A stretch of 53,009 nucleotides of DNA, taken from the NCBI GenBank assembly GCA_938028465.1, contig CALJAA010000015.1, forward strand, positions 1 through 53,009, given 5' to 3'. The notes beneath the pieces were generated by a model that was given only the letters and a program-made list of their open reading frames with translations, had not been told where the DNA came from and did no database searches. Every line of letters begins with the position of its first letter. The stretch's first letter is position 1. This DNA comes from an uncultured Granulosicoccaceae bacterium (lineage in GTDB: Bacteria > Pseudomonadota > Gammaproteobacteria > Granulosicoccales > Granulosicoccaceae). Below, piece by piece: positions 15,412-37,546 of this stretch. A program made the position numbers and the translations under genes.

Positions 15412-15417
15412 ACCACT

Positions 15418-16518
15418 ATGGCCGCCAAGAAATCCAAGCCAAAAAAAGCTTCGTTAAATCAGCCCGCCGAAGTGCTTTATGCTGATGAGCTAAAAGCGCT
15501 CAATGCGGTAGATGATGAGCGTCCAGAAGGTTGGAAGTTGGCACCGCAGGCGGTAGTAACGTATCTGCTGGGCGGTGAAGCGCCTGATGGCAGTGCGGTC
15601 AGTGCCAAGTACGTTGGTAATCGACGTTTAATAGAAACAGCCGTGGCAACACTAGCTACTGATCGAGCCCTGTTGCTTTTAGGTGTGCCGGGTACTGCAA
15701 AATCATGGGTATCGGAGCACCTTGCAGCTGCTATATCGGGTGATTCGCAAAGGCTTATTCAATGCACAGCGGGCACTGATGAAAATCAAATTCGGTATGG
15801 TTGGAACTATGCCTCCCTGCTTGCAAAAGGGCCCTCGGATGAGGCTTTGGTTCGTACACCGTTGTTGAGGGCGATGGAAGAAGGCACCTTGGTGCGCTTG
15901 GAAGAACTAACGCGTATGGGATCGGATGTACAGGACACCTTGATCACCGTGTTGTCTGAGAAAATTCTACCGATACCCGAGCTCGATAAGGCGATTGTTG
16001 CAAATCGTGGATTTAATATCATCGCAACTGCCAATAATCGGGATAAGGGCGTTAATGATTTGTCTTCTGCATTAAAGCGTCGTTTTAACGTTGTTGTATT
16101 GCCACTGCCCTCATCTTTAGAAGAGGAGGTGAGCATTGTCGTTGATCGTGTTGCGCAAATTGGTGCAGGCCTTGGGTTGCCAGATATCGAGCCTGCTGAA
16201 AAGGAGCTCGCTAGAATTGTTGAATTGTTCAGAGAGCTGCGCGACGGTCAAACAGCTGATGGAAAGATAAAACTCAAAACACCCAGTGGTTCACTGTCCA
16301 CGGCAGAAGCAATTTCTGTTGGGATAAGTGCTTGGGCTGAAGCAGGTCATTTCCGGTCTGGAGTGGTGGATGCTGATTCCCTAGCTGTTAATCTTATTGG
16401 TGCAATCGTCAAAGACCCTGTGCAAGACGCCATAGTGCTGCAGGAATATTTGGAAACAGTTGTGCGTCCCCGCAAGCAATGGCGCGATCTTTATACTGCT
16501 ATCCGCGAAGTCATGTAA
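15418..16518 (+). CDS. MoxR-type AAA+ ATPase
   Basis: The 366-residue AAA+ ATPase starts 6 nt after the DUF5691-like gene. Walker A is GVPGTAKSW (residues 89-97); the Walker B region reads LVRLEELTRM, with Glu-Glu where most MoxR proteins have Asp-Glu; sensor 1 is IIATANNRDKG and the arginine finger region is LKRRFN. A C-terminal lid domain follows. MoxR ATPases work as remodelling chaperones together with a vWA partner (for example RavA-ViaA), and the vWA gene at the end of this operon is the obvious partner. The substituted Walker B appears to be a property of this subfamily rather than damage, since the surrounding motif is intact. Confidence 0.92.
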   Translation: MAAKKSKPKKASLNQPAEVLYADELKALNAVDDERPEGWKLAPQAVVTYLLGGEAPDGSAVSAKYVGNRRLIETAVATLATDRALLLLGVPGTAKSWVSEHLAAAISGDSQRLIQCTAGTDENQIRYGWNYASLLAKGPSDEALVRTPLLRAMEEGTLVRLEELTRMGSDVQDTLITVLSEKILPIPELDKAIVANRGFNIIATANNRDKGVNDLSSALKRRFNVVVLPLPSSLEEEVSIVVDRVAQIGAGLGLPDIEPAEKELARIVELFRELRDGQTADGKIKLKTPSGSLSTAEAISVGISAWAEAGHFRSGVVDADSLAVNLIGAIVKDPVQDAIVLQEYLETVVRPRKQWRDLYTAIREVM

Positions 16519-16540
16519 CTGATACTAACGATTCAATTGC

Positions 16541-18913
16541 ATGGATAATCGATTACATATTCTAGGTATTAGGCATCACGGGCCGGGTTCAGCTGCGAGT
16601 GTTGAAAAGGCATTAGAGGAACTCAATCCAGATGTTGTTTTAATAGAAGGCCCTAGCGATGCTAGTGAGCTAATCCCGTTCGCAGCGTCGGCGGGAATGC
16701 GTCCACCCGTGGCTATATTAATTTACCCAAAGGGTTACCCTGAGGCTGCACGCTTTTTTCCATTTGCTGAATTCTCGCCTGAATGGTGTGCAATGCTATG
16801 GGCTCTTAACCACAATAAATCGGTCAAGTTTATTGACTTACCTATGCAAGCATCGCTTGTTGACAAGCTACTTGAGCAGCAGGCAGAAAAAGATAGAATC
16901 AAGGACGAACGAGCTGATGATGCCGAAGCATTTGATGCGGATGCTAACGTTGATAGCGATATTGATGATGATACTGATTCTGAGGTGGATCAACGCAGCC
17001 TAATTGCAGCCGACCCCCTTAATGAAATGGCTCGAGTTGCTGGCTATTCGGATGGAGAGAGTTGGTGGAATTCGATTGTTGAGCAATCTGAGAATAGTCT
17101 GAACGCTTTTTCTGCTATTGAAGATGTTATGGCAGCGTTGCGTTCTCGGATTGAAGGCCACAGGCAATCCGGCGATGTTGCTAAAGATGATAATGAATTA
17201 CGTGAGCAGCAGCGCGAAGCCCATATGCGGTCGCACATTCGTGAGGCATTGGCTGACCATGACGGATGTGTTGCCGTTGTTTGTGGAGCATGGCATGCGC
17301 CAGCTTTGAGTCAGATAAAAAATTACGCTGTTAAAGACGACAATACACTATTAAAACAAACAAAACCCTTAGTTGGTGAGAGCTGTTGGATACCGTGGAC
17401 AGACCCAAGGCTGGCTGTATCCAGTGGCTATGGTGCAGGAGTTATTTCTCCAGGTTGGTATCGTCATCTTTGGAAGCAAACTCACAATACCAATGGTATC
17501 GATTTCAACATTGCACAGTGGCAAAGTGAAGTCGCGACGCTTTTGCGTAATGAAGGTTACGACGCATCTACCGCTTCGGTTATTGAGGCAACCCGCTTGT
17601 GCCGGTCTCTTGCTGCTGTGCGTGGTTTGGCTATGCCTGGCTTAGTTGAAATGCAAGATGCCAGTTTGTCTGCCTTGTGTCATGGTGAACTCGCACCTTT
17701 GCAGATTATTGATAAGAAGCTCATTATTGGTAACACAGTTGGTAGTGTAGATGAATCTGTCCCGCAACCGCCGTTGTTAACTGATCTCTCCCGGTTACAA
17801 AAAAAGTACCGACTCAAGCCTGAAGCACTTGGCCGTGAGGTTAAGTTTGACCTTCGTAGTGAAAGTGGAATGGCAAAGTCAGAGTTGCTGCATCGGCTGA
17901 CGCTATTGAATGTCAGTTGGGGCAAACTAAATAATGCTGAGGCAGGTCGCGGTACCTTTCGAGAAGACTGGCAAATTGAGTGGCAGCCAGAGCATGCTGT
18001 AGCGTTGGCCGAAGCAGTCATTTATGGTCCTACGATTGAAATTGCGGCTGCGTCTTGCGCTGTTGCTAAAGCGCAAGATATCGATAATGCGGAGCAGTTG
18101 TCAGAGCATGTCCGGTTATGCTTACTGGCTAATTTGCCGCAAGCGGTTAGTATTGCCATTTCTCGTTTGCAAGCACTTGCTGCAACATCAGTAGAAATAA
18201 GCGCCTTGATGTCAATTGTTTTGCCACTGGCTGACATTATGCGTTACGGTACGGCTCGTAACATACCGCTAGCAGAACTCAAAAAGCTTACTAACAGCAT
18301 CATCATCGAAGTGGTTAGTGGGTTCCGGTATGCCTGCCATCAATTAGACAATGACGCATCCATTAATATGCGTTCACTGACTCGACGATTCGACCGTGCG
18401 GTTAGTATGGTCGAGGGCAATCATTTGGAAACACAGTGGTGTGTGGCACTCGAAGGAGTTGTATACGATGACCGAGCAGCGCCGCTTATAAGAGGGCAGG
18501 TCACAAGGATGTTGCATAACAAGCAGCATTTTGATTTGTCGAAAACCGCCAGTGCACTATCGCTCAATCTATCTCGGTCTATCCCTACAGACCAATCGAG
18601 CGCTTGGCTAGAAGGTTTTATCGATCAGTCGGGTGAAGTGTTTGTACATGATGATGATTTATTCGTCTTGGTCGACGAATGGTTGCAATCGCTTGATGGC
18701 GATACGTTTATCGAGATACTTCCCACTATACGACGATCGTTCACGGAGTTTGACGCGATACTACGCCGGCGACTGTTACAAAAAACGTTCGCAGTGGCTT
18801 CACAAGCGAAAGTGGCAGTCTTGGATGCGGGCGCATCCAACTCGTTGACAGAAGATGCTTTTCAATCAATGTTGCCGCTGCTAAAGCAACTAGTGGATTT
18901 GCCAGATGAGTAA
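16541..18913 (+). CDS. DUF5682-like protein with TraB/TIKI-like motifs
   Basis: A 790-residue protein beginning LHILGIRHHGPGS (residues 5-17), followed by PDVVLIEGP (30-38) and later VVCGAWHAP (246-254). The spacing and content (GxRH near the start, PD-hhhhE, then GxxH) recall the TraB/TIKI/ChaN-EreA superfamily of putative metalloproteases, where these residues form the active site; this is a motif-level inference. An acidic, low-complexity insert (many D and E) spans about residues 120-152. The C-terminal 400 residues are helical without known motif. It sits 22 nt after the MoxR gene, and its last 8 nt overlap the vWA gene. Best regarded as the candidate effector or substrate of the MoxR-vWA pair. 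Confidence 0.78.
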   Translation: MDNRLHILGIRHHGPGSAASVEKALEELNPDVVLIEGPSDASELIPFAASAGMRPPVAILIYPKGYPEAARFFPFAEFSPEWCAMLWALNHNKSVKFIDLPMQASLVDKLLEQQAEKDRIKDERADDAEAFDADANVDSDIDDDTDSEVDQRSLIAADPLNEMARVAGYSDGESWWNSIVEQSENSLNAFSAIEDVMAALRSRIEGHRQSGDVAKDDNELREQQREAHMRSHIREALADHDGCVAVVCGAWHAPALSQIKNYAVKDDNTLLKQTKPLVGESCWIPWTDPRLAVSSGYGAGVISPGWYRHLWKQTHNTNGIDFNIAQWQSEVATLLRNEGYDASTASVIEATRLCRSLAAVRGLAMPGLVEMQDASLSALCHGELAPLQIIDKKLIIGNTVGSVDESVPQPPLLTDLSRLQKKYRLKPEALGREVKFDLRSESGMAKSELLHRLTLLNVSWGKLNNAEAGRGTFREDWQIEWQPEHAVALAEAVIYGPTIEIAAASCAVAKAQDIDNAEQLSEHVRLCLLANLPQAVSIAISRLQALAATSVEISALMSIVLPLADIMRYGTARNIPLAELKKLTNSIIIEVVSGFRYACHQLDNDASINMRSLTRRFDRAVSMVEGNHLETQWCVALEGVVYDDRAAPLIRGQVTRMLHNKQHFDLSKTASALSLNLSRSIPTDQSSAWLEGFIDQSGEVFVHDDDLFVLVDEWLQSLDGDTFIEILPTIRRSFTEFDAILRRRLLQKTFAVASQAKVAVLDAGASNSLTEDAFQSMLPLLKQLVDLPDE

Positions 18914-20096
18914 AACACAGATCATGAGTGAACGCTCTCGGCGTTGGCGGCTATGCCTTGGTGTTGATGATGAGAGTGGCCAATCTAAGCTTGCTGGTGA
19001 TGACATACGAATCGATGCGGCTTTGGCAGCGCTCTATGGTGGTGACGGTGGGGGCGCGGGTCGCAAGGGTGGGTTGGGAGGCTCATCGCCCAGGTTGGCT
19101 AAGTGGTTGGGCGACATAAGAGAGTTTTTCCCGACGTCGGTTGTGCAAACCATACAAAGAGATGCATTTGAGCGCCATAACCTGCACGCGATGTTGCTCG
19201 AGCCTGAATTGTTAGCTGTATTAGAGGCAGATGTGCATCTAGTAGCTGACTTAATGAGTTTAATGGGGGCTGTCCCAGACAAGACGAAGGAAACTGCACG
19301 TATGGTCGTGCAGAAAGTTGTTGATGAGCTAATGCAGAAGCTGGAGCAAAAAACGGCCGAGGCTGTGCGTGGTGCTATCGATAAATCGCGCAGAACAAAA
19401 CGACCTAGGTTTAATGATATTGATTGGCACCGCACTATTGAAGCTAACCTTCGTCACTATCAAAAGAAATACAACACGATCGTACCAGAAAGCTTAATAG
19501 GTGCAGCTCGTAAGTCACGCACGCTTGCTGATCTTGAAGAAGTGGTGTTGTGTGTTGATCAATCAGGGTCAATGGCAACATCAGTGGTATATAGCTCGAT
19601 CTTTGCTGCGGTTATGGCGTCATTGCCTGGCATTGAAACCAAAATGGTGGCGTTTGATACGGCCATCTTTGATCTTACTGAAATGCTTGAAGACCCAGTC
19701 GATGTCTTGTTTGGTGTGCAACTTGGCGGAGGCACCGATATTAATCAGGCCTTACGCTATTGCGAAGGCATTGTTCGTCAGCCTGGTAAATGCCATCTAA
19801 TCCTCATTACAGACCTTATGGAGGGCGGGGATACCAAGGCAATGTTGGCCAAAGTTGATGAACTAACAACCATGGGGGTAAATGTTATCGTTTTGTTGGC
19901 TTTATCCGACGATGGCAAGCCCTACTACGACGAAGATAATGCTCAAAAAATATCGGCAATGGGGTGTCCGGTATTTGCCTGTACGCCAGATCAATTTCCT
20001 GATCTGATGGCGGCCGCATTGAAACGAGCTGATATTCATCAATGGGCCGCTGCGCAAGATATCGCTTTGATTCGCGGGGATGGTGCTGCGCGTTAG
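18906..20096 (+). CDS. vWA domain protein, partner of the MoxR ATPase
   Basis: The 396-residue protein has a C-terminal von Willebrand A domain with a complete metal-ion-dependent adhesion site: DQSGSM (D218-x-S-x-S), threonine in GGGTDINQAL and aspartate in LITDLMEGG. The N-terminal 210 residues are basic and helical, with a glycine-rich stretch (GGDGGGAGRKGGLGG) near residues 45-60. Such proteins recruit substrates to MoxR AAA+ ATPases. It overlaps the DUF5682-like gene by 8 nt and closes the operon; a hairpin with a T-rich tail lies 138 nt downstream. Confidence 0.9.
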   Translation: MSKTQIMSERSRRWRLCLGVDDESGQSKLAGDDIRIDAALAALYGGDGGGAGRKGGLGGSSPRLAKWLGDIREFFPTSVVQTIQRDAFERHNLHAMLLEPELLAVLEADVHLVADLMSLMGAVPDKTKETARMVVQKVVDELMQKLEQKTAEAVRGAIDKSRRTKRPRFNDIDWHRTIEANLRHYQKKYNTIVPESLIGAARKSRTLADLEEVVLCVDQSGSMATSVVYSSIFAAVMASLPGIETKMVAFDTAIFDLTEMLEDPVDVLFGVQLGGGTDINQALRYCEGIVRQPGKCHLILITDLMEGGDTKAMLAKVDELTTMGVNVIVLLALSDDGKPYYDEDNAQKISAMGCPVFACTPDQFPDLMAAALKRADIHQWAAAQDIALIRGDGAAR

Positions 20097-27966: not shown

Positions 27967-27985
27967 TTGCACGGGCTTCGTGCAA
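27967..27985. promoter_or_regulatory. Perfect palindrome in the SDR/LysR divergent promoter
   Basis: TTGCACG (27967-27973), spacer GGCTT, CGTGCAA (27979-27985): a perfect 7-bp inverted repeat lying between the SDR start (27908) and the LysR-type start (28004). LysR-type regulators recognise such interrupted dyads with a T-N11-A core. It is therefore the best candidate operator for both genes. Confidence 0.6.
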
Positions 27986-28003
27986 ATATTAGTTGGACAT
28001 GAA

Positions 28004-28888
28004 ATGGATTGGAATGAACTAAAGTATTTACTCGCGGTTTCAAGGGCGGGGCAGGCTGGCCGCGCTGCTGATGAATTAAGTGTTAGCCACGCAACTGTTT
28101 CGCGAAAAATTGCTGAACTTGAAAAAAAGCTTGGAGTCAATTTAGTCGACCGAAGTGGGCTTTCTTGGACGGTTACACCGATTGGTCAAAGGATCGCAAA
28201 GCAAGTAGAGATGATGGAAAATTGCGTTCGTGAGACCGAGAGTATTGCAAAAGAACATAGCGATGATTCGGCTGGCACTGTTCATATTTCTGCACCGAAC
28301 ATTCTGATAACTGAGTTGCTGGCAGGCGCGTTGAATGGTTTTTCAAAACAATATCCGAATATTAACTTAGCAATTACATCACTAGATAGCTTCGCAGACC
28401 TTCGAGCACGTGAAGCTGATATCGCCCTGCGGTTTACTGATATGCCAGATGCGAACCTTGTTGGTGTAAAGATTAGGCGCTTCACATGGTCTTACTATGC
28501 TAATGGCCAAGTACAAAATATAATCAAACTATCCTTAGGCTCCAATCCAGATGCCCTGCCGAAGGTGCCGCTGTTAACGAGTAGTCCAGACGATGGATTC
28601 CCCAGTTGGGCAAGGGGTATCTTTCATCCCGAAAGCACCTTGAATCATGTTTATGGTTACAGGGAAAAAGCGTTTCTTGCTGCTGAAGGCTTGGGTGTTG
28701 CATTGTTGCCGGATATGATTGGATTGGCTGTGCCTGGCATATCAGTAGTTACGCCGTACGTCAGCGAGCGAAGCACGCAGTTGTGGATCCTTTCCAATGA
28801 TGATGCAAAGACGTCATCTCGAATAAGAACGGTTAAGAAATTTCTCATTAACAAGCTGGTTGAAAATGATGGCAATGCTAAAGACTAG
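28004..28888 (+). CDS. LysR-family transcriptional regulator
   Basis: A 294-residue LysR regulator with the N-terminal winged helix MDWNELKYLLAV, then AGRAADELSVSHATVSRKIAELEKKLGVNLVDR (recognition helix), and a substrate-binding domain. This N-terminal type (DWN/DWD-ELKYFLAV) is common in the group that controls SDR and other single-enzyme operons. ATG 28004 is preferred over a GTG at 27980, which would place the start inside the palindrome. It probably regulates the divergent SDR-lipoprotein operon. Confidence 0.9.
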   Translation: MDWNELKYLLAVSRAGQAGRAADELSVSHATVSRKIAELEKKLGVNLVDRSGLSWTVTPIGQRIAKQVEMMENCVRETESIAKEHSDDSAGTVHISAPNILITELLAGALNGFSKQYPNINLAITSLDSFADLRAREADIALRFTDMPDANLVGVKIRRFTWSYYANGQVQNIIKLSLGSNPDALPKVPLLTSSPDDGFPSWARGIFHPESTLNHVYGYREKAFLAAEGLGVALLPDMIGLAVPGISVVTPYVSERSTQLWILSNDDAKTSSRIRTVKKFLINKLVENDGNAKD

Positions 28889-28897
28889 TATGGTTAC

Positions 28898-29824
28898 CTA
28901 GCGTGACTCAGACCCATCAAACACTTCACCCAATGAGAAAGGTGCGTGTAAACGCATGCGCGCGGCATTCGTTGAAATAATGGCTAATACAATGATGGTG
29001 ACGATGTAGGGCAGGCTGGATAGCAACTGCGACGGTATTCTAGCGCCCATCGATTGAGCGATTAGCTCGCCTAAAGAAACCATACCAAATAACAATGCGC
29101 CAAAGGCAATGCGGCCGGTTTTCCATGTGCCAAACACAACTAATGCAACAGCAATCCAACCACGGCCAGCGATCATGCCGTCAGCCCATAATGGGGTGTA
29201 GATGGTTGAAGCATATGCACCAGCAAAGCCTGCAAGCAAGCCACCAAATGCAACACAACAATACCGGATCAAGAATACGGGAAACCCCAATGCCTGTGCA
29301 GCGTGCGGGTTTTCGCCCGTGGATCGAATAGCCAACCCAAGCCGTGTGTGTTTAAACGTAAAGCCTATGCACAGTGCCAGCGCGAACGTTAGATAGACCA
29401 CGATGTTTTGTTGGAACAACACCGGGCCGATTAGGGGCAGATCACTAAAAAATGGAATAGCTATACCGTTGGTTGAAGCAATAGTTAGGCTTTCGTGGTT
29501 ATTGCCAATTAGAGCAGATAGCCCTAAGCCCAAAATACCGACGGCTAAGCCTGATGCCACCTGATTAGCCAAAAACGAAATAGTGATAACAGCAAACACT
29601 AGTGAAACGATCACACCCGAAACCCCGGCTATTGCAAACCCTAACAAGTGGTTTCCTGTTTCGTAGGTAACCACAAAGCCAACGGCTGCAGAAACTGCCA
29701 TCATGCCTTCAACACCCAGATTTAGAACGCCTGATTTCTCTGCGACCAGTTCACCCAGCGCGGCGAGCAAAAATATGGTGGCCGCACTGAGCGTACCGGC
29801 TAGGAAAAATTCTATAGTGCTCAC
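28898..29824 (-). CDS. BMP-type ABC transporter permease (second subunit)
   Basis: A 308-residue inner-membrane permease of the branched-chain/nucleoside (BPD_transp_2) family with about nine hydrophobic helices. GVLNLGVEGMMAVSA (35-50) and LAIRSTGENPHAAQALGFPV are the family's cytoplasmic coupling signature. Best match by pattern is the YufQ/NupQ-type subunit. The start overlaps the first permease gene by 4 nt (29821-29824). It is the last gene of the 9-gene minus-strand operon. Confidence 0.92.
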   Translation of the reverse strand: MSTIEFFLAGTLSAATIFLLAALGELVAEKSGVLNLGVEGMMAVSAAVGFVVTYETGNHLLGFAIAGVSGVIVSLVFAVITISFLANQVASGLAVGILGLGLSALIGNNHESLTIASTNGIAIPFFSDLPLIGPVLFQQNIVVYLTFALALCIGFTFKHTRLGLAIRSTGENPHAAQALGFPVFLIRYCCVAFGGLLAGFAGAYASTIYTPLWADGMIAGRGWIAVALVVFGTWKTGRIAFGALLFGMVSLGELIAQSMGARIPSQLLSSLPYIVTIIVLAIISTNAARMRLHAPFSLGEVFDGSESR

Positions 29825-30912
29825 GATGTTAGTTTGGGGGTTGCTTGAGTAATAGGGCGAACAACTCGCAAGCGGTAGTTCACAAACGTGTAGGTAGCCA
29901 GATAGAAAATCAGTAGTAAGCCTTGAAATACGTGTACTGCACTTATTGGTAAGTCAGCAGATACTAGTGCTACATCTCCTCCAATTTGCAGTACGGCCAA
30001 AAAGAAAGCAGCAAAGATGATTCCTATGGGGTTGAGCGCACCGAGGTAGGCAACGATGATGGCAGAGTACCCGTAGCCTGATGTTACTGAGCGCTGTAAT
30101 TGGCCAATTGGCCCGGCAATCTCGCTCATGCCTGCGATGCCAGCTGCAAAACCAGCTAGTAGCAGGCTACTCCATACTGCCTTTTTAGAACTGAAGCCTG
30201 CGTAGGTTGCTGCGCTCGGTGCAAGCCCACCCACAATCAATCTAAAGCCACCGAAGTGCTTTTCCATAAAAAGCCATATACCAATGGTAAAAATAATCGG
30301 TATTGCGATTGATGTGTTTATACGCGCGCCATCGAACAAATAGGGAAACAAGGCTTCATCTTGAAACATAACCGTTTGGGGAAAGTTAAAACCCATTGGA
30401 TCTTTCCATGGTCCAAGTAGTAAGTAATACAAAATTTGTAGGGCAATTGATGACAACATCAGTGTCACCAAAATTTCATTCGCATTAAACTGTGTTTTTA
30501 AAAATGCCGCTATAGCGGCCCAAGCCATGCCGCCCAGAGCGCCCAGTACAATCATCGCTGGTAATAGCCACGCGGAAGTGCTGTCAACAAAGTAGACCGG
30601 TACTGAGCTGGCCGCGATCGCCCCAATGATCATTTGGCCTTCAGCGCCGATATTCCAAACCTTGGCACGAAAACCCACAGCTAGTGCTTGTGCAATCAGT
30701 AAAAGGGGGCCGAACTTTAAAAATATCTCAGTAATGGAGTAAAAATTTTCGAATGGAGCGATAAAAAAAGAGTGGAACGTTAACAGCACGGGTTTGTTAA
30801 GCACGAGCAATAAGAGTGTGCACACAAGCATCGACAAGCCAACAGCCATTATCGGCGTGGCAATCAGCATAGCCTTAGAGTAATGAACTCGACGGTCTAG
30901 TTTAAACTGCAT
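29821..30912 (-). CDS. BMP-type ABC transporter permease (first subunit)
   Basis: A roughly 363-residue permease of the same family, with NIGAEGQMIIGAIAAS and YAGFSSKKAVWSSLLLAGF marks, around ten hydrophobic segments, corresponding to YufP/NupP. ATG at 30912 (MQFKLDRRVHY) is chosen because AGGAGG lies five bases before it; the longer frame from 30930 would place that site inside the gene. The start overlaps the end of the ATPase gene by 11 nt. Confidence 0.92.
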   Translation of the reverse strand: MQFKLDRRVHYSKAMLIATPIMAVGLSMLVCTLLLLVLNKPVLLTFHSFFIAPFENFYSITEIFLKFGPLLLIAQALAVGFRAKVWNIGAEGQMIIGAIAASSVPVYFVDSTSAWLLPAMIVLGALGGMAWAAIAAFLKTQFNANEILVTLMLSSIALQILYYLLLGPWKDPMGFNFPQTVMFQDEALFPYLFDGARINTSIAIPIIFTIGIWLFMEKHFGGFRLIVGGLAPSAATYAGFSSKKAVWSSLLLAGFAAGIAGMSEIAGPIGQLQRSVTSGYGYSAIIVAYLGALNPIGIIFAAFFLAVLQIGGDVALVSADLPISAVHVFQGLLLIFYLATYTFVNYRLRVVRPITQATPKLTS

Positions 30913-32452
30913 GATTGCCTCCTGTTTCACGCAGCTCTTGCTGGTTACCGATCATGTACTCACCGATGTCATTAGGTGTTAGCGCTGAGGTTGTGAGTGA
31001 TGGTGATAGTGCACCACCGTTAATGACGTACATACGGTCAGTGATCTCAAATAGTTCTTCTAATTCTTCGGAGATGATCAACACCGCCACGCCGGCTTCA
31101 CGCAAGTCGAGTAATCGTTGACGAATTGCAGTAGCGGCTCCAATATCCACACCCCAAGTGGGTTGGGCAACGAAGAGTAGTTTGGGTGTAAGCATGAGCT
31201 CGCGGCCAACAATGTATTTTTGTAGATTGCCACCAGATAATGAGCTGGCGGTTGAGTCTGGGCCGCCGCAGCGGACATCAAAATCGTTTATACATTTTTG
31301 CGTATAGCTAGCGATGGCTTTTTTCTTTAAAAAGCCCTTTTTGAGCATGCCTTTTTCGAACGCAGTGAGCAAAGCGTTTTTAGACAGAGGCATTGGCGGT
31401 ACTGCACCACGGCCTAATCGTTCTTCAGGTACAAAGCTAAAACCTAAGCGCCTTCTATCCGCTGCGCCTAAATGGGCTGCAGGCTGGTTGATCATGTTTA
31501 TGGCGTTAGGTGCAAGAAGTTTACTTAAGAGCTCACCAGAGATTACTTTAGATAGCTCTTGTTGCCCGTTGCCGGATACGCCGGCAATGCCGACGATTTC
31601 ACCGCCGTGTACATCAAGATTAATATCGCTAAGGCTTGTGCCAAAAGGATCTTGGGCTTCTACAGAAACAGACGATAGTTTTAGTAGTGGCTTTTCGCTA
31701 GTGCGTTGTTGGTCACGACCCGTGACGCTGGGTACGTCATGGCCAATCATTAATGTAGCGAGTTCTTTTGCCGTTTTCTCGTTTGGATTAACAGAGCCGG
31801 TGACTTTGCCTGCGCGTAACACAGTTGCTGTATCGCAGAGTTCTCGAATCTCCTCCAGCTTGTGGGAGATGTATAGAATCGCGACGCCGTTATCACGAAG
31901 TTTTCGCAAGGCATCAAACAAGGAGAGTATGTGCTGCGGTGGCAGTACAGAAGTTGGTTCATCAAGAATCAGTAATTTTAGATCTTGCATTAAGCAACGA
32001 ATGATTTCGACGCGTTGTCGTTCACCCACTGATAACGAATGTACTGAGGCGGCAGGATTCACATTCAGTTGGTAGTGATCTCCAAGCTCTATGATTTGTT
32101 TGGAGAGTTGCTCACGACTGCCAGGCATCGTAAGCGAAATGTTTTCTACGACACTGAGTGTTTCAAACAATGAAAAATGCTGAAAAACCATGCCAATGCC
32201 GAGCTTTCTAGCGGCGGCCGTGTTGCGTATGGAAACTGAGTTTCCTTGCCAATAAATTTCACCGGCGTCTGCTTCGATTAATCCGTAGGCAAGCTTCATT
32301 AATGTAGATTTGCCCGCACCATTTTCACCTAGGATGGCGTGAATGGAGCTCGGCATAACATCTAGATTAATTTGGTCGTTGGCAATAACTGTTGGGTACT
32401 GCTTGGTGATGTTGCGTAGCGACAGCAGTGGTGTGGTTGGCGTGTTAGACAT
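30902..32452 (-). CDS. ABC transporter ATP-binding protein, duplicated cassette, BMP/nucleoside type
   Basis: A 516-residue protein with two ABC domains. The first has GENGAGKSTLMKLAYG (Walker A, near 43), LSVGERQRVEIIR signature and LLILDEPTS Walker B. The second has a degenerate Walker A, GVSGNGQQELSKV, which is the rule in the sugar/nucleoside families, and an SSLSGGNLQKYIVGREL signature. In the second Walker B the usual acidic pair is replaced (LFVAQPTWGVD). No good ribosome binding site precedes ATG 32452; translation may depend on structures in the 66-nt gap after the binding-protein gene. Confidence 0.93.
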   Translation of the reverse strand: MSNTPTTPLLSLRNITKQYPTVIANDQINLDVMPSSIHAILGENGAGKSTLMKLAYGLIEADAGEIYWQGNSVSIRNTAAARKLGIGMVFQHFSLFETLSVVENISLTMPGSREQLSKQIIELGDHYQLNVNPAASVHSLSVGERQRVEIIRCLMQDLKLLILDEPTSVLPPQHILSLFDALRKLRDNGVAILYISHKLEEIRELCDTATVLRAGKVTGSVNPNEKTAKELATLMIGHDVPSVTGRDQQRTSEKPLLKLSSVSVEAQDPFGTSLSDINLDVHGGEIVGIAGVSGNGQQELSKVISGELLSKLLAPNAINMINQPAAHLGAADRRRLGFSFVPEERLGRGAVPPMPLSKNALLTAFEKGMLKKGFLKKKAIASYTQKCINDFDVRCGGPDSTASSLSGGNLQKYIVGRELMLTPKLLFVAQPTWGVDIGAATAIRQRLLDLREAGVAVLIISEELEELFEITDRMYVINGGALSPSLTTSALTPNDIGEYMIGNQQELRETGGNHAV

Positions 32453-32469
32453 GTTTATGCGTAAGTGAG

Positions 32470-32498
32470 AGCGCCACAGGCATGAAACCTGCGGCGCT
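32470..32498 (-). other. Stem-loop between binding-protein and ATPase genes
   Basis: Arms 32470-32480 and 32488-32498 form an 11-bp stem on the minus-strand RNA with one G-U pair and a 7-nt loop. There is no T-run. Similar hairpins after binding-protein genes protect the upstream message and lower downstream expression, giving the excess of binding protein that importers need; this role is inferred from position. Confidence 0.55.
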
Positions 32499-32518
32499 TA
32501 CTTTATTAGCCTTATTAG

Positions 32519-33610
32519 TTATTTAGGCAGTGGTGAGTTAACACCTTCAACATGCCAGTCCATACCTAATATTGCACCATCCTCCAATCTTTCGCCAGCA
32601 GCAATGACAGTTTCGCCGGCCTGATTAACCAGTGGCCCATCATAAACATGCTTAGCGCCTGATACGATATCGGCTTGCGTGGCTTCAATTTTAGCCATCA
32701 TGTCTTCACTGATGTCTGAGTTCCAATCTTCGACAACAACAACATCGTCTGTCATACCCAGCCATTGGTTTTGACCTTCAAAGTTGCCAGCTAAGTGCGC
32801 ATCAACAGAAGCGACGAAAAACGGAGCCCAGTCGGTTTTAACTACACCTAAGTATTTTGTTGGCGCGTAAGCTTTCATTGAGCCATTCAAATTGAAGACA
32901 TAAGCTCCACCTTCTTCACCAACAGTAACAACCGAAGGGGTGTCTTGTGCGTTGGAGAATAAGATGTCGGCACCGCCTGCTAGCAATGCTTTGGCTGAGT
33001 CTTGTGCTTTGGCGGGATCAAACCAAGAGTTAATCCAAATAACATCAACGGTAATCTCTGGATCGATGCTGCGGGCACCTAGAGTAAAGCCGTTGATAGT
33101 TGAAATGAGCTCTGGAATGGCAAAGGCTGAGACTACGCCTAGCTTTTTGGTTTTAGTCAGCTCAGCTGCGGCCATGCCCATCAAGTAGGCGCCTTCATAA
33201 TACTTAGCAGTGAAAGGTGAAAAGTTTTTGGCTGTTTTGTAACCAGAAGCATGCAGAAAAGTACGCTTTGCGTTGCGCTTGGCTAACTTGAGGCCGCCGT
33301 TCATAAATCCAAACGAACCGAGAACTAAAAATTCGTTTCCGTCACCGACCATTTTATTCATGATGCGATCCGCATCAGGGCCTTCTTGAATATTCTCGAT
33401 CACGTTGATTTCGACATCATCGCCGTATTTCGCTTTAACAGCATCTACGCCATCAACCAGTGCTTTTGACCAACCAACATCTGCAATGGGTGAAGGCGTT
33501 AGTAGGCCAATCTTGAGTGGGTCCGCGGCGTTGGCCGCTGTGTTTATCAGTAATCCCGATACGGCAAACGCTGCTAGCGCTTTTAACATCTTGTTTCTAA
33601 ATGCATTCAT
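32519..33610 (-). CDS. BMP-family periplasmic substrate-binding protein
   Basis: About 363 residues with a Sec signal peptide (MNAFRNKMLKALAAFAVSG... cleavage after ANA), then the BMP/PnrA fold opening LKIGLLTPSPIADVGWSKAL. Continuing features are VIENIQEGPDADRIMNKMV and VDVIWINSWFDPAKAQDSAKALLAGGAD, as in BmpA-like nucleoside or purine-binding proteins. No lipobox Cys, so it is a soluble periplasmic protein. ATG 33610 has AAAGGA about nine bases upstream; the open frame extends 12 codons further but without this site. It delivers the substrate to the permease pair encoded downstream; in this operon a purine-like ligand is most likely (inference). Confidence 0.92.
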   Translation of the reverse strand: MNAFRNKMLKALAAFAVSGLLINTAANAADPLKIGLLTPSPIADVGWSKALVDGVDAVKAKYGDDVEINVIENIQEGPDADRIMNKMVGDGNEFLVLGSFGFMNGGLKLAKRNAKRTFLHASGYKTAKNFSPFTAKYYEGAYLMGMAAAELTKTKKLGVVSAFAIPELISTINGFTLGARSIDPEITVDVIWINSWFDPAKAQDSAKALLAGGADILFSNAQDTPSVVTVGEEGGAYVFNLNGSMKAYAPTKYLGVVKTDWAPFFVASVDAHLAGNFEGQNQWLGMTDDVVVVEDWNSDISEDMMAKIEATQADIVSGAKHVYDGPLVNQAGETVIAAGERLEDGAILGMDWHVEGVNSPLPK

Positions 33611-33668
33611 ATAATGATTCTCCTTTATTGGTTGATTTGTAGTCACTGTTTCCCTGTGTCAGGGCCGC

Positions 33669-35054
33669 TTATAAATGCTTGTATACCACACGTTGTACAT
33701 GAGACTGGGCTTCAGCCGCCATTTTGTGTTCGTCAAGGCCCGGGAACTCCCCATTGCGCCATACGATGCGTCCATTGATCATGGTGAGATCAACGTTGGT
33801 GGTGATGCCTAGTTTGGCAATCAAGCTCTCTGGGTCGTGCAGAGCGCCAACGTATTCTACCTTTCTGGTATCTAGGGTGAATAGGTCTGCGGCTTGCCCA
33901 GGCGCAAGGGAGCCAAGCTCTGGGCGGTTTAGTAAGTCTGCGCCCCCGCGAGTTGCATAGTTTAAGAACAGCTTTGGCTTTGGCACAGGAAAGTTATGCT
34001 GTGATGCCACTAGTGCTTGCAACATATAGGCGCTGTGGATGCAATGCATAAGATTCGAATTATCATTTGATGCAGCGCCATCAACACCTAGGCCAATGCG
34101 TACACCTGCTGCCTGCATTTCGGGGATAGGGGTTACTTCAGCGCCCACTAGATAAACAGGCTCAGGGCAGTGCGAAACACCGGTCTGTGTTTTTGCCAGT
34201 TGTTTAATTTCGGATCCGTTGAGCTCCCAGCAGTGTGCAAGCCAAACGTCTGAACCCACAAAGCCAATGTTTTCACACCAATCGACGGTTCGTAAACCTG
34301 TACGTTGTCGTATTACTTCGCTTTCGCCTTCGCCTACATGGCTATGCAATAGCACTTTTTTATCTCGTGCTAAAGCGATCGATTCTTTAAACGTTTCAAT
34401 GTAGGAGTTAACGGGTTGGCACGGTGCCACTGCAACTTGACGCATGCTGTACGGCTGTGAATCGTGGTAGGTATCGATTAGGCGTGCGCAGTCAGCAATA
34501 AACTCATCGGTGGTTTCGCACATTTCATCGGGGATGGTGCTGCCTTCAGATTTGGGTAAGGTGTTGCCGCCACGGCCCGCATGAAATCGCATGCCTAATA
34601 GTTCGGCTGCTTCAAATTGCCTGTCGACAATGTTTTTCCCGGCGTGTCGTGGAAAATTGTATTGATGATCGAACGCGGTTGTACAACCGTGTTTTATTAG
34701 CTCGCCCATAGCAGCGATGGATGAATGATAAAAACACGCTTCGTCTAATTTAGAAAACAATGGGTAGATGAGGTCTAACCATTCAATTACTGAATATTTA
34801 GTCCAATCAAGATGAGCATGATTGCGCACGAAACATTGAAAAAAATGATGATGCGTATTAATGAGCCCTGGATAAACAAAGTGCCCGGTGCCATCAATTA
34901 CATCAGTGTTAGCCGGGATGTCGCTTTCAGGGATATTGCTTGCAATCTTGGATATAGAATTGCCAACGACTAGTAGGTCAGCATTTTGATGCACAGTGCT
35001 ATTGTCATCACAACTGACAATGGCATCACAGGATTTAAAAAGCGTATTGTTCAC
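33669..35054 (-). CDS. 8-oxoguanine deaminase-like amidohydrolase
   Basis: A 461-residue amidohydrolase of the AtzB/TrzN/8-oxoguanine deaminase group. Metal ligands: HxH in LINTHHHFFQ (H68, H70), HSHVGE, LAHC and the catalytic Asp in GLGVDGAASNDNSN. GCTTAFDHQYNFP, VAPCQPVNSY and GLRTVDWCENIGF correspond closely to Pseudomonas 8-oxoguanine deaminase as I remember it. The reaction would remove an exocyclic amino group (or other substituent) from a purine-like ring. Its ATG overlaps the GST gene stop (ATGA); the importer binding-protein gene follows. Related s-triazine hydrolases cannot be excluded. Confidence 0.85.
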   Translation of the reverse strand: MNNTLFKSCDAIVSCDDNSTVHQNADLLVVGNSISKIASNIPESDIPANTDVIDGTGHFVYPGLINTHHHFFQCFVRNHAHLDWTKYSVIEWLDLIYPLFSKLDEACFYHSSIAAMGELIKHGCTTAFDHQYNFPRHAGKNIVDRQFEAAELLGMRFHAGRGGNTLPKSEGSTIPDEMCETTDEFIADCARLIDTYHDSQPYSMRQVAVAPCQPVNSYIETFKESIALARDKKVLLHSHVGEGESEVIRQRTGLRTVDWCENIGFVGSDVWLAHCWELNGSEIKQLAKTQTGVSHCPEPVYLVGAEVTPIPEMQAAGVRIGLGVDGAASNDNSNLMHCIHSAYMLQALVASQHNFPVPKPKLFLNYATRGGADLLNRPELGSLAPGQAADLFTLDTRKVEYVGALHDPESLIAKLGITTNVDLTMINGRIVWRNGEFPGLDEHKMAAEAQSHVQRVVYKHL

Positions 35055-35713
35055 GGCGATATCTTTTGTGTACTTTTTAGTTCGTGGAGTTCATGAATGC
35101 CAGGCATGGTTAGAAAATTATCGAGGCTGCGTAAGGCATGCAACCAACTGCGTATTGATGGATAGTCGTCGTGTTCTATTCCGGCATCTGGGCTAAGTGC
35201 TGTGTATGGGAAGCAGGCAACATCTGCAACGGTAGGGTTGTCACCGCTTAGCCATTGAATGCCTTTTATGCGTTGTTCAGTGAGGTGAGATTCCAGTTCA
35301 CGCAGACAAATTTTGGAGCCGTGTTTTGCAGCTTCAACGTCGATTGCTTTGTTAAGCATTGAGTTCAAGCGCAACTCACCAATGGTTGCACTTAAGCGCG
35401 AGGAAAACTCAAGCCATTGAACAACACGGGTAAGTTGGTCGCTGTTGTTTGCTGGCCACCAAGTGTTACTCTGGTCGTGATGTTGTGCCAGCCAAGTGAG
35501 CATATCCTTTGTCTCGGTAAACACGTGGCCATCGGTAACAAGGATGGGTAAAGTGCCTGCAGGGTTGAGCTTTAACAGTGCTTTGGATTTGTGTTCTTGG
35601 CCGGGATGAAAATCAACCGCAATAGTTTCGTAGTTGATGTCTAGTAGGCTTGCTAGCAACCTAATTTTGTAGCAATTACCCGATAGTACATAGTTGTAGA
35701 GTGTAATCGTCAT
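35051..35713 (-). CDS. Glutathione S-transferase-like protein
   Basis: A 220-residue GST fold: N-terminal thioredoxin-like domain (ITLYNYVLSGNCYKIRLLASLLDINYE, with a Ser/Cys at the catalytic position, then NPAGTLPILV and ETKDMLTWLA) and an all-helical C-terminal domain (WLSGDNPTVADVACFPY). Its start codon overlaps the Rieske-less oxygenase stop (TGATG), so expression is coupled. In the caffeine system NdmE, a GST homologue, is a structural part of the NdmCDE complex; an equivalent role is proposed here because the same partners are encoded next door. Confidence 0.88.
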   Translation of the reverse strand: MTITLYNYVLSGNCYKIRLLASLLDINYETIAVDFHPGQEHKSKALLKLNPAGTLPILVTDGHVFTETKDMLTWLAQHHDQSNTWWPANNSDQLTRVVQWLEFSSRLSATIGELRLNSMLNKAIDVEAAKHGSKICLRELESHLTEQRIKGIQWLSGDNPTVADVACFPYTALSPDAGIEHDDYPSIRSWLHALRSLDNFLTMPGIHELHELKSTQKISP

Positions 35714-36558
35714 CAGCTTCGTTCAAACGCGCCATAGTATGCGCCGCGTTTTTTTAACCAGCGGCGGTAGGCTATAGAGGTTAGGTCAGCCTTAGTTGGT
35801 ATCTCATGCCCCGGGTCGATGGGTAGTTTTCTTGGCATTTGGTTCTCGAGAATCGATCGGTCCTGCACAAATATCAATTGTTGAAATTGAATCAGATCAG
35901 CCATAGAACTCGTGTCATCATATAGCGCCATCCAAGGCCAGACATCGCAAGTTTCTTCATCCAACGGTTGCACAAACAAAGCGATAACATCTAAACATTC
36001 TGGCTTTGGCGGACAAGTTTTATAGAGCACGGCTGCCATTGGCGCAGGTACGCGATAAATGTATTCGGTTTCAATCCCGCCCTCTGCTGATTTAGATGCC
36101 TGAGGTTGAAAAAACTTGATGTTAGTGGCAAACACTTCATCCACTGTTTCATCAATTTTGACATCGTATTTATAAACTTCAGTATGAGGTTCAGAGCCTA
36201 ATACGCCGGTATGCACAAACGGGAAGTGAGCGATATCAAGAAAGTTTTCCACGGCTCGCAAAGGCGAGCATGAAACTCGTACCACACCGCAAGGTACAAA
36301 TCTGCGTTCTTGTTCGGATGATTCTGGTATAGCAAACAACGGGTATGGGGTGTCAGAAAACGTTGTCCAGGCATGACCATAGGCATGTTGCACGGCTAGT
36401 GATTTACCGGCAGCGTTTACGTCAAGCCGCTCGTCGTTACTCCTGCTCACTACTATGTCGGTGTTAAGTAACTTTGTGTGTTTTGATTGGCCGGTGTCGA
36501 GTTCATCTGCCATTGCAACAGGGTACCAATACTTCAGGGCGTGATCATATCCGCTCAT
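35713..36558 (-). CDS. Rieske-oxygenase catalytic subunit lacking its own Rieske cluster
   Basis: A 281-residue protein. The N-terminus (KYWYPVAMADEL, 9-20) aligns with the start of Rieske oxygenase alpha subunits, but the expected CxH and CxxH cluster ligands are absent; the region is short and degenerate. The C-terminal catalytic domain is intact: NFLDIAHFPFVH (105-116) supplies the bridging Asp108 and iron-ligand His111 and His116, and FVQDRSILENQ places Asp233 as the third iron ligand. The enzyme must therefore receive electrons from a separate Rieske protein, and one is encoded immediately upstream, overlapping by 4 nt. This is the arrangement of NdmC. Substrate probably an N-methylated or otherwise substituted heterocycle (inference). 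Confidence 0.86.
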   Translation of the reverse strand: MSGYDHALKYWYPVAMADELDTGQSKHTKLLNTDIVVSRSNDERLDVNAAGKSLAVQHAYGHAWTTFSDTPYPLFAIPESSEQERRFVPCGVVRVSCSPLRAVENFLDIAHFPFVHTGVLGSEPHTEVYKYDVKIDETVDEVFATNIKFFQPQASKSAEGGIETEYIYRVPAPMAAVLYKTCPPKPECLDVIALFVQPLDEETCDVWPWMALYDDTSSMADLIQFQQLIFVQDRSILENQMPRKLPIDPGHEIPTKADLTSIAYRRWLKKRGAYYGAFERS

Positions 36559-37220
36559 TGTTGTTCAGCTTTATGTCTTACTGATTCACACCAGCGGGAT
36601 ACGGCGACTAACTCGTTAGTTTGATAAACGTCTTTGGCTAATAAGTGGGCGACAACACTTTTGGGGTGAGGCTGCTGAAACAAAATAACAATACCGTTTG
36701 CTCCACTAGGTGATTCTAAAGAGAGAATTTTCGGATGCTGAGAAAGTTCTGTAACCGTGCCGTTGAATAGCGCTGCATCTACTTTTGCGGCGGCTTTAAA
36801 TGCGTCAATCGCTGAAGGAAGATTGCAGTCTAACGTAATACTCCTGAGCGCTATTAAATCATTAGGCAACGATACTGGCTTGGCATCAGCGACAGTGTTC
36901 ACCCATAAAATACCAGCTTGCTCCACGACGCTATAGATGTTTGGTCGGATAGTGGATGGTGGTTCAAGTTCTGGATGAGCTGGAATGTAATTGCATTTTC
37001 CGCTGCAGTCGTAGTGCCAGCCGTGATAGGCGCAAGCTAGTGATTCACCGCGTACAAACCCATGAGATAAACGCATACCACGATGCGGGCAACGGTTTTC
37101 CCATGCGGAGACAACACCGTTAGTGCTGCGCCAGATCGCTAAATCCGTTTGCCCTACCTGTGCCCTCATCACGCCTTTCGGCGCTAAGTCACGTGCTAGG
37201 CCTATGGGCTCGGTACTCAT
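36555..37220 (-). CDS. Rieske [2Fe-2S] protein, electron donor for the Rieske-less oxygenase
   Basis: A 221-residue protein with a complete Rieske motif: CPHRG (C44, H46) and CAYHGW (C63, H66), 16 residues between C-x-H and C-x-x-H. The first ~110 residues are the Rieske domain; the last ~100 show no iron-ligand triad and resemble only a remnant of an oxygenase domain. It overlaps the oxygenase gene by 4 nt (ATGA at 36555-36558). No ferredoxin reductase domain is fused and none is encoded in the window, so a reductase from elsewhere must feed it. Confidence 0.87.
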   Translation of the reverse strand: MSTEPIGLARDLAPKGVMRAQVGQTDLAIWRSTNGVVSAWENRCPHRGMRLSHGFVRGESLACAYHGWHYDCSGKCNYIPAHPELEPPSTIRPNIYSVVEQAGILWVNTVADAKPVSLPNDLIALRSITLDCNLPSAIDAFKAAAKVDAALFNGTVTELSQHPKILSLESPSGANGIVILFQQPHPKSVVAHLLAKDVYQTNELVAVSRWCESVRHKAEQQ

Positions 37221-37255
37221 TGGATTCGTTTCTCTCGTCTTGTGTGGTTCTATGC

Positions 37256-37546
37256 TTAGTATCTAATGAATAGCGCTGGATGTCGATAGTGCTCTTCGGG
37301 CGTGTTTTCTTGTTTTTTGTCAATGGATGAAACCTGCGCGTCAATTGGGCCAAGGCTGCAAGCTACTTCCATAGCGTCTACCAGTATTGGGTCGCCGCTT
37401 AAGAAAATCTCAACTAGGTGGTCGCCACTTGCTTTTACCCAGCCTGAGACGTTTAACCGTTTGGCGCGGCTTAGGATCCATTCAGGGAAAGTGTCGTTTG
37501 GAAATTGCCCATGTATGAGTAGGGTCACTGTCACGAGCTTTGGCAT
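37256..37546 (-). CDS. Acylphosphatase-like protein lacking catalytic residues
   Basis: A 96-residue protein whose pattern follows the acylphosphatase fold: an N-terminal beta strand with a modified loop (LLIHGQFPNDTF against the usual VQGVxxR), helix, then LNVSGWVKASGDHLVEIFLSG and VDAMEVACSLGP. The catalytic Arg of the loop and the Asn after GWV are not conserved (Asn and Ala here), so enzyme activity is unlikely. It lies 35 nt before the Rieske gene and is the first gene of the operon. A structural or ligand-binding role in the neighbouring system is conceivable. Confidence 0.62.
   Translation of the reverse strand: MPKLVTVTLLIHGQFPNDTFPEWILSRAKRLNVSGWVKASGDHLVEIFLSGDPILVDAMEVACSLGPIDAQVSSIDKKQENTPEEHYRHPALFIRY

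Follow-up and report, generated by a model that had tools for sequence, protein, structure and literature searches.

A conserved nine-gene operon joining a split Rieske oxygenase to a purine-type deaminase and a BMP importer: a candidate scavenging unit for N-methylated purines

Nine genes form an operon-like unit in a Granulosicoccaceae bacterium

The stretch of DNA analysed here (the window) comprises positions 1 to 53,009 of contig CALJAA010000015.1 from GenBank assembly GCA_938028465.1, a 4.1 Mb assembly of an uncultured Granulosicoccaceae bacterium in 223 contigs that is 88.76% complete. Nine open reading frames (ORFs) occupy its minus strand from 28898 to 37546. An initial annotation, made from the letters of the window, had described them as an operon that combines a split Rieske oxygenase, a glutathione S-transferase (GST)-like protein and a purine-type deaminase with a dedicated BMP-type ATP-binding cassette (ABC) importer, and had proposed that they import, oxidise and deaminate a modified, perhaps N-methylated, purine. 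Pfam backs all nine assignments (Acylphosphatase, Rieske, VanA_C, GST_N/GST_C, Amidohydro_1, Bmp, ABC_tran and BPD_transp_2 twice), and the genes, in order from the first, are as follows.

37256..37546, minus strand: acylphosphatase-like protein, 96 amino acids (Pfam Acylphosphatase, 1.4e-9)
36555..37220, minus strand: Rieske [2Fe-2S] protein, 221 amino acids (Rieske, 5e-21)
35713..36558, minus strand: Rieske-less non-heme iron oxygenase of the NdmC-type clade, 281 amino acids (VanA_C, 2.7e-20)
35051..35713, minus strand: GST-like protein, counterpart of NdmE, 220 amino acids (GST_N_3, 6.5e-13)
33669..35054, minus strand: amidohydrolase deaminase, relative of 8-oxoguanine deaminase, 461 amino acids (Amidohydro_1)
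32519..33646, minus strand: BMP/PnrA-type periplasmic binding protein (Bmp, 3.8e-39)
30902..32452, minus strand: ABC importer ATPase with two ATPase domains (ABC_tran, 2.2e-41, two stretches)
29821..30930, minus strand: ABC importer permease (BPD_transp_2, 9.7e-35)
28898..29824, minus strand: second ABC importer permease (BPD_transp_2, 3.5e-31)

The genes are tightly packed. Gaps of 35 bp, 22 bp and 66 bp separate the acylphosphatase-like gene from the Rieske gene, the deaminase gene from the BMP gene (measured from its listed GTG start) and the BMP gene from the ATPase gene, respectively. All other neighbours overlap, by 4 bp (Rieske/oxygenase), 1 bp (oxygenase/GST), 4 bp (GST/deaminase), 29 bp (ATPase/permease) and 4 bp (permease/permease). 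For the BMP gene, an ATG 12 codons inside the listed GTG, just ahead of a signal-peptide-like stretch, appears to be the likelier start.

The unit is found across bacterial classes, and its oxygenase type is frequent on plasmids

With the oxygenase as query, a pattern-based scan of 84,980 species genomes, which detects close relatives only, returned 13 loci (L001-L013), and the closest of these from a named genome, L001, belongs to a metagenome-assembled genome of an uncultured Granulosicoccaceae bacterium (83%). In a plasmid search, the oxygenase matched 309 of 72,556 records at E<=1e-3, with identities of 60-80% in 123; no genus contributed more of the 309 than Rhizobium (128 records), and legume nodules are the isolation source for many of the listed hosts. 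Within a sample of the host's own class, 11 of 369 genomes gave any oxygenase match, and the Rieske-less-looking ones are four in number (the host itself, G270, G063 and G307, with E below 1e-100). In the class of genome G007, matches at E<=1e-40 were found in 8 of 385 sampled genomes, G007 included.

Of the 42 compared loci with an oxygenase relative, 14 preserve the complete nine-gene order (L001-L005, L007-L009, L015, L016, L023, L024, L037 and L072), with the last gene of L005 cut by the contig end, and because the order recurs in this way it is not a product of chance. L072 is the locus of G270, and five of the 16 plasmid stretches examined carry the full set: Rhizobium etli CFN 42 p42c (L015), Qingshengfaniella (L016), Agrobacterium pusense (L023), Shinella (L024) and R. 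etli IE4803 (L037), the first gene of these plasmid loci being confirmed through a profile search. L011 has the genes, with its oxygenase and GST joined in frame; contig ends truncate L006 and L012, and a short Blastopirellula contig (L013) holds the oxygenase, an NdmD-like protein and a GST. The underlying neighbour table has 42 of 43 loci as rows, L025 having given no oxygenase-labelled best match; L069 and L070 overlap on one contig, contig ends may conceal neighbours in L006, L012, L013, L038, L066, L067, L069, L071, L073 and L074, and some acylphosphatase-like genes that the table missed were later recovered by profile search. The operon-like arrangement of the initial annotation is therefore borne out by coordinates, Pfam and shared gene order, and its prediction that the genes would co-occur in other genomes holds across bacterial classes.

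The oxygenase belongs to a Rieske-less, NdmC-type clade

The oxygenase has no CxH/CxxH cluster motif: the first strands of the Rieske fold remain and the cluster loops are gone. Residues D108, H111, H116 and D233 are invariant in 12 of 12 oxygenases, and from Rieske oxygenases in general we take them to be the bridging Asp, the two His and the third-ligand Asp of a 2-His-1-Asp iron site. The nearest entries in the Protein Data Bank by sequence are SxtDIOX (2e-20)/SxtT, followed by NdmA (4e-10) and NdmB, and a Foldseek search with the structure model (predicted local distance difference test, pLDDT, 80.7) gave the same nearest neighbours, with GxtA at 3e-18 and NdmA at 3e-13. NCBIfam gave no match for the oxygenase at E up to 0.1.

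In a maximum-likelihood tree of 38 rows, the oxygenase lies within a clade of 30 Rieske-less sequences (support 100/99) that also holds sequences from P. putida pKF715A, Paraburkholderia caffeinilytica and a Klebsiella plasmid. The window-type oxygenases form one group of 16 rows inside this clade (97/91), and HpxD and the NdmA/B-like enzymes fall outside it. The tree was built without L011 (an oxygenase-GST fusion), L012 (cut), L022 (in pieces) and L039-L074, with full-length forms for L025 and one L018 oxygenase and with the shorter annotated start for L035. Homologues of ndmCDE have been described in Janthinobacterium, Klebsiella, Pseudomonas, Sinorhizobium and Mesorhizobium (PMC4408171), and reference clusters were called NdmC-type from gene order, tea or kombucha origin, formaldehyde-pathway neighbours and the statement in that paper, rather than from a certified NdmC sequence. 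Judged from sequence, the oxygenase is related by descent to NdmC-type proteins and is more than an analogue, and the earlier description of it as NdmC-like stands on the missing cluster motif, the retained iron ligands and the clade.

Three loci show other arrangements of this enzyme. On pSymA of S. meliloti (L021:8965-10776), a pair of neighbouring paralogues of the Rieske-less oxygenase precedes a single NdmD-like protein and a single GST. L011:1401-2633 is a 410-amino-acid ORF in which oxygenase residues 1-239 continue in frame into GST residues 100-213, either a natural deletion or an assembly artefact. On a Leptolyngbya plasmid (L026:1294-6948), a BMP importer stands directly ahead of a complete one-chain Rieske oxygenase, which joins the Rieske-less clade through a long branch and perhaps resembles the unsplit ancestor.

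The cluster is carried by a separate protein without a reductase

The Rieske protein has an intact CPH...CxxH cluster motif and a C-terminal part that lacks iron ligands. It is the counterpart of residues 1 to ~235 of NdmD-like proteins, without their reductase, and its C-terminal 118 residues match residues ~100-235 of these proteins (hhalign probability 92.6, E 4.6e-7). In the AlphaFold2 model (pLDDT 83.6) the tail is predicted to have the order beta-alpha-beta4-alpha. Foldseek matched the protein to GxtA at E 1e-12, and in the first 24 rows its alignments to one-chain oxygenases span 266-284 columns, more than the Rieske domain alone has, with a loose fit (TM score 0.60-0.71 by query length, root-mean-square deviation 5.2-8.7). 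From the predicted order and these alignments, the tail may be a shrunken catalytic domain, helix-grip-like in miniature, that has no iron ligands, in which case the Rieske protein and the oxygenase would be complementary remnants of one ancestor. Direct profile matches did not reach significance, with a probability of 3.8 for the Rieske tail against the oxygenase and 12.1 for the NdmD-like region against the oxygenase. The likeness to NdmD claimed in the initial annotation thus holds for the N-terminal part only. Fusion of the Rieske domain to a flavin/ferredoxin reductase, as in NdmCDE, was not found: the gene encodes 221 residues of Rieske protein, and the cassette contains no reductase, as had been noted from the start. 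In a Komagataeibacter cluster, a stand-alone Rieske protein is accompanied by a separate reductase.

The GST-like gene adjoins the oxygenase gene, and its product is homologous to the GSTs of reductase-fused NdmCDE-like loci (tblastn 38-46%, L017 being cut), which fits its assignment as the counterpart of NdmE. Of the 42 loci with an oxygenase relative, 39 have a GST gene, the exceptions being L026, L038 and L069.

A degenerate acylphosphatase-like protein accompanies the unfused Rieske protein

The first gene product matches acylphosphatase 2w4d at 3e-5. With 2w4d taken as reference, and with Arg and Asn assumed to be the catalytic residues, the catalytic Asn is found in 0 of 23 family members and the Arg column holds Arg in 2 of 23; the window copy has Pro and Ala at the Arg and Asn columns. 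The family label is thus sound by Pfam, but both catalytic residues are gone from the window copy. Despite this catalytic loss, the Cys of an ACSLGP-type motif is kept throughout the printed alignment of the family.

A profile search of the 43 loci found the acylphosphatase-like gene in 22, always directly upstream of a stand-alone Rieske gene on the same strand, and these Rieske genes span 199-291 codons from stop to stop. The gene is absent from all nine loci with a Rieske ORF of at least 582 codons (L013, L017, L018, L020, L021, L027, L034, L035 and L067), two of which, L013 and L067, are short contigs. Rieske ORFs of intermediate length occur in L022 (331) and L068 (466). The loci in this count are not independent, and five with a separate Rieske gene but no acylphosphatase-like gene (L064, L065, L066, L070 and L071, the last starting at the oxygenase) count against a strict rule. 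The gene also occurs in L019 and L036, which lie outside the window's tree group. We infer that the acylphosphatase-like protein is probably a structural or assembly partner of a Rieske protein that is not fused to a reductase. A search of open-licence papers gave no acylphosphatase-Rieske pair among the matches listed.

The binding protein and deaminase point to a probable 2-amino purine substrate

The importer comprises Bmp, ABC_tran and two BPD_transp_2 proteins, as first described. The solved structures nearest to its binding protein are AtzT (6pi5, 2e-75) and 3s99 (8e-70), which holds adenine (PMC6834077). Reported affinities of AtzT are 110 nM for guanine, 0.36 uM for ammeline, 2.2 uM for 2-hydroxyatrazine and 2.5 uM for adenine, with thymine, cytosine and uracil bound at 620 uM or weaker (PMC6834077). 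When the AtzT pocket is mapped onto the cassette protein, S97, F98, E165, N169 and W194 are identical and Y45 is replaced by Trp in 15 of 15 cassette copies, and this set of residues is not kept in six BMP proteins of other cluster types. The cassette protein departs from AtzT at Asn218/Asn220, both of which contact guanine: here the stretch reads SNAQD and is one residue longer. In AtzT it is close to the alkyl substituents of bound 2-hydroxyatrazine. The curated models for a putative B6 BMP transporter (NF047927-NF047930) were missed at 85.3/400, 178.6/465, 153.4/400 and 421.6/670 bits. A ligand unrelated to heterocycles, named at the outset as the finding that would overturn the proposal, is not what this homology suggests, with both nearest structures being purine binders.

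The deaminase matches the 8-oxoguanine deaminases 3hpa and 7ww2 over its full length (~1e-87 each) and keeps the HxH metal motif, the Gln, HxxE with its catalytic Glu, and the His and Asp positions. In the amidohydrolase superfamily the Gln is described as polarising the exocyclic oxygen (PMC12828455), and enzymes related to this deaminase act on guanine, giving xanthine, and on 8-oxoguanine, giving urate (PMC6186785). However, the protein scores 399.8 bits against the 8-oxoguanine deaminase equivalog NF006055, for which the cut-off is 532, and in 15 of 15 cassette copies HCPEPVYLVG replaces the HCPCSNMRLA of the substrate loop, a sequence that differs from all four relatives compared. The metal and catalytic positions are kept, but the changed HCPCSN loop makes a substrate other than 8-oxoguanine likely.

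Cassette-type deaminase genes occur in 17 of 42 loci compared. Near the oxygenase in L019, L027 and L070 there is a guanine deaminase of another subfamily, above the TIGR02967 cut-off (404-421 bits), and in L071 a guanine-deaminase homologue, found by homology alone, lies ~3 kb from the cluster. A BMP gene is present in 28 loci, of which 19 have a deaminase; none was found in the DNA examined of L017, L020, L021, L026, L034, L064, L066, L068 and L069 (L069 overlaps L070, which has one). Three clusters, L018, L022 and L035, carry a nucleobase symporter in place of a BMP gene and have no deaminase. This pattern of loci favours, without proving, a 2-amino purine over a methylxanthine. The oxygenase homology itself could suggest that the substrate is a methylxanthine, in keeping with the activity of NdmCDE on 7-methylxanthine (PMC4408171), and that the deaminase serves a side substrate or guanine salvage. 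We consider this unlikely given the frequency of the cassette-type deaminase, its absence from the three symporter clusters (L018 and L035 also hold NdmA/B-type genes) and the preference of AtzT for guanine and adenine far above pyrimidine bases, in the part of the table in PMC6834077 that is available, which does not include xanthine.

A further alternative is a different 2-amino-4-oxo heterocycle as substrate, for example isocytosine, a hydroxy-s-triazine or a pterin such as isoxanthopterin, which would undergo deamination and either oxidation or dealkylation. Relatives of the cassette deaminase accept pterins. Its unusual loop and the name atzB given to the gene in one Rhizobium record could also be read this way, as could the binding of ammeline and 2-hydroxyatrazine by AtzT and the acceptance of s-triazines and isocytosine by related deaminases (PMC12828455, PMC6186785). 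This reading seems rather unlikely, with the replacement deaminases of L019, L027 and L070 scoring above the guanine deaminase cut-off, the NdmC-type relatives residing in methylxanthine-type clusters, and the legume-nodule origin of many plasmid hosts not suggesting a herbicide.

Host genomes hold urate-pathway genes, and formaldehyde genes lie near some related clusters

Among 13 host genomes, the urate-pathway gene for OHCU decarboxylase is present in 13, guanine deaminase above cut-off in 11 (505-593 bits) and xanthine dehydrogenase (XDH) above cut-off in 10; in two further genomes XDH is found only in pieces below cut-off, and the host's own assembly has none above cut-off. Because the hosts have urate-pathway and guanine deaminase genes, plain guanine or xanthine would need no extra enzymes. 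Purine genes also lie near related clusters: an allantoinase gene ~3 kb beyond the cassette in Qingshengfaniella, a guanine deaminase and a molybdopterin-binding enzyme after the cluster in Mesorhizobium (L027), and a gene annotated as xanthine dehydrogenase family near L021, with a short match in L070 as well.

These genes bear on the possibility that the split oxygenase hydroxylates guanine at C8 and that the resulting 8-oxoguanine is deaminated to urate, bypassing XDH. The nearest named family of the deaminase, the AtzT-like binding protein, the missing XDH of the host assembly and the oxidation of hypoxanthine and xanthine by the related HpxD/HpxE in Klebsiella (PMC7373994) are in line with it. 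Yet HpxD retains a cluster of its own and branches apart from the Rieske-less sequences, the deaminase falls short of the 8-oxoguanine deaminase cut-off with an altered loop, and such a bypass would be redundant in hosts that mostly have XDH and all have a urate-pathway gene. The XDH-family gene near L021, the molybdopterin-binding enzyme near L027 and the short match in L070 also speak against it, and we regard it as unlikely.

Formaldehyde dehydrogenase matches lie near the NdmC-type oxygenases of L022, L035 and L036 (in two pieces in L036). The cluster of P. caffeinilytica (L035), from tea soil, contains S-(hydroxymethyl)glutathione dehydrogenase and FghA.

Regulation and neighbouring genes

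A LysR gene at 27980-28888 was considered as a dedicated regulator and rejected: because it is convergent with the cassette and no LysR relative adjoins the cassette in L001-L013 (in L008 one lies ~5 kb off), it is probably outside the unit. A GntR-type gene lies near several related loci. An Rfam search with riboswitches of the xanthine/NMT1 class in mind gave no match above the gathering score in the window, L001, L002, L007 and L008, and a promoter and terminator scan found sites no more frequent than in shuffled sequence. Elsewhere in the window, a plus-strand run at 12530-20096 encodes DUF5691, a MoxR-type AAA ATPase, DUF5682 and a VWA/CoxE protein, and 4500-7049 encodes an 849-amino-acid FAD oxidoreductase with folate-binding GCV_T domains that is dimethylglycine/sarcosine dehydrogenase-like from its domain order.

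Discussion

The operon is best read as a self-contained scavenging unit for an N-methylated 2-amino-6-oxopurine, most likely a methylguanine and with 7-methylguanine the leading candidate, a reading to which we assign a probability of about 0.5. Periplasmic capture of the base would fall to the BMP protein and its uptake to the ABC importer. The deaminase would hydrolyse the 2-amino group, turning methylguanine into methylxanthine, or could act after demethylation, and the split Rieske oxygenase would remove the N-methyl group as formaldehyde. An external reductase could feed electrons to the stand-alone Rieske protein, which would pass them to the mononuclear iron site of its Rieske-less partner, the subunits being held together by the GST-like protein and probably also by the inactive acylphosphatase-like protein. 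The xanthine product would then enter the host's ordinary route to urate. In this scheme we infer the substrate class, the methyl position, the order of reactions, the formation of a complex, the role of the first gene and the electron donor.

Several considerations shape this proposal. A methylated substrate is suggested because the characterised member of the clade is a demethylase (PMC4408171), because formaldehyde dehydrogenase genes lie near L022, L035 and L036, and because hosts handle the unmethylated bases themselves. A methylated guanine is favoured over a methylxanthine because the deaminase stands beside the BMP importer. Deamination first is the more likely order since the hosts have guanine deaminases of their own, and it would turn methylguanine into methylxanthine, a known type of NdmCDE substrate. 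7-Methylguanine is the commonest natural methylguanine, and N7 is favoured as the methyl position because of this abundance together with the homology to NdmC. The purine-binder relatives, the co-occurrence of the genes and the NdmC-type clade support the route proposed initially, in which a modified purine is imported, oxidised and deaminated; methylguanine is a refinement of that route.

Other observations weigh against this proposal. The importer-deaminase link is incomplete, since nine of the 28 BMP loci have no deaminase that was found; L073 and L074 show none in the DNA examined, on contigs that end near the genes, and L010 and L063 have the first four genes only (acylphosphatase-like, Rieske, oxygenase and GST), contig ends cutting some such loci. 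The SNAQD replacement removes two guanine contacts of AtzT. The one line of sequence evidence for N7 is homology to NdmC, by way of clusters labelled NdmC-type. The window cassette has no formaldehyde gene, and the host's own assembly lacks an XDH above cut-off for the final step. A Komagataeibacter VanB-type reductase query found no dedicated reductase in the host assembly (88.76% complete), the sole match being weak, in two pieces of one gene, to a PaaE-type protein beside a PaaC gene.

We advance more tentatively, as possible but less than probable, the specific route in which 7-methylguanine, probably released from RNA caps, rRNA and tRNA, would be imported, deaminated to 7-methylxanthine and N7-demethylated to xanthine. 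The heteromeric oxygenase would then consist of two complementary degenerate copies of one ancestor, one retaining the cluster but no longer the iron site and the other the reverse, held by the GST-like and dead acylphosphatase-like subunits.

The closest known system is NdmCDE, the 7-methylxanthine N7-demethylase of Pseudomonas putida CBB5, with which the cassette shares a Rieske-less iron oxygenase, a separate Rieske domain and a GST-like third protein; NdmCDE-like loci have a homologous oxygenase and Rieske N-terminus. The cassette differs in its Rieske protein, which is unfused to a reductase, and in the added acylphosphatase-like gene, purine-type deaminase and BMP importer. The ndmCDE homologues of Sinorhizobium and Mesorhizobium, which are already in print with no function assigned (PMC4408171), resemble it in having a BMP importer beside NdmC-, NdmD- and NdmE-like genes, and in L027 a guanine deaminase and a molybdopterin-binding enzyme as well. 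They differ in their fused NdmD, the lack of an acylphosphatase-like gene, an oxygenase that is 41-44% identical and a deaminase that is absent or of another subfamily. HpxD, a molybdenum-independent xanthine hydroxylase, is a more distant Rieske oxygenase relative that works on purines but is a complete one-chain enzyme (29% identity, Pantoea L025).

Taken together, the comparisons indicate that the operon is real and widely conserved, and no description of its function was found; it is an NdmCDE-type system that adds its own importer and deaminase. The division of cluster and iron site between two proteins, with no fused reductase, makes the system useful for studying electron transfer and the roles of GST-like and dead acylphosphatase-like proteins. 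The proposal also gives a testable function to a cassette that is annotated only gene by gene in the plasmid records examined. Methylated guanine is made wherever RNA is made, and among the matches listed in a search of open-licence papers there was no bacterial methylguanine catabolic operon. Because the oxygenase type is frequent on plasmids of Rhizobium and relatives and present in Granulosicoccaceae, the system could play a part in how nitrogen is recycled near plants and, perhaps, in the sea.

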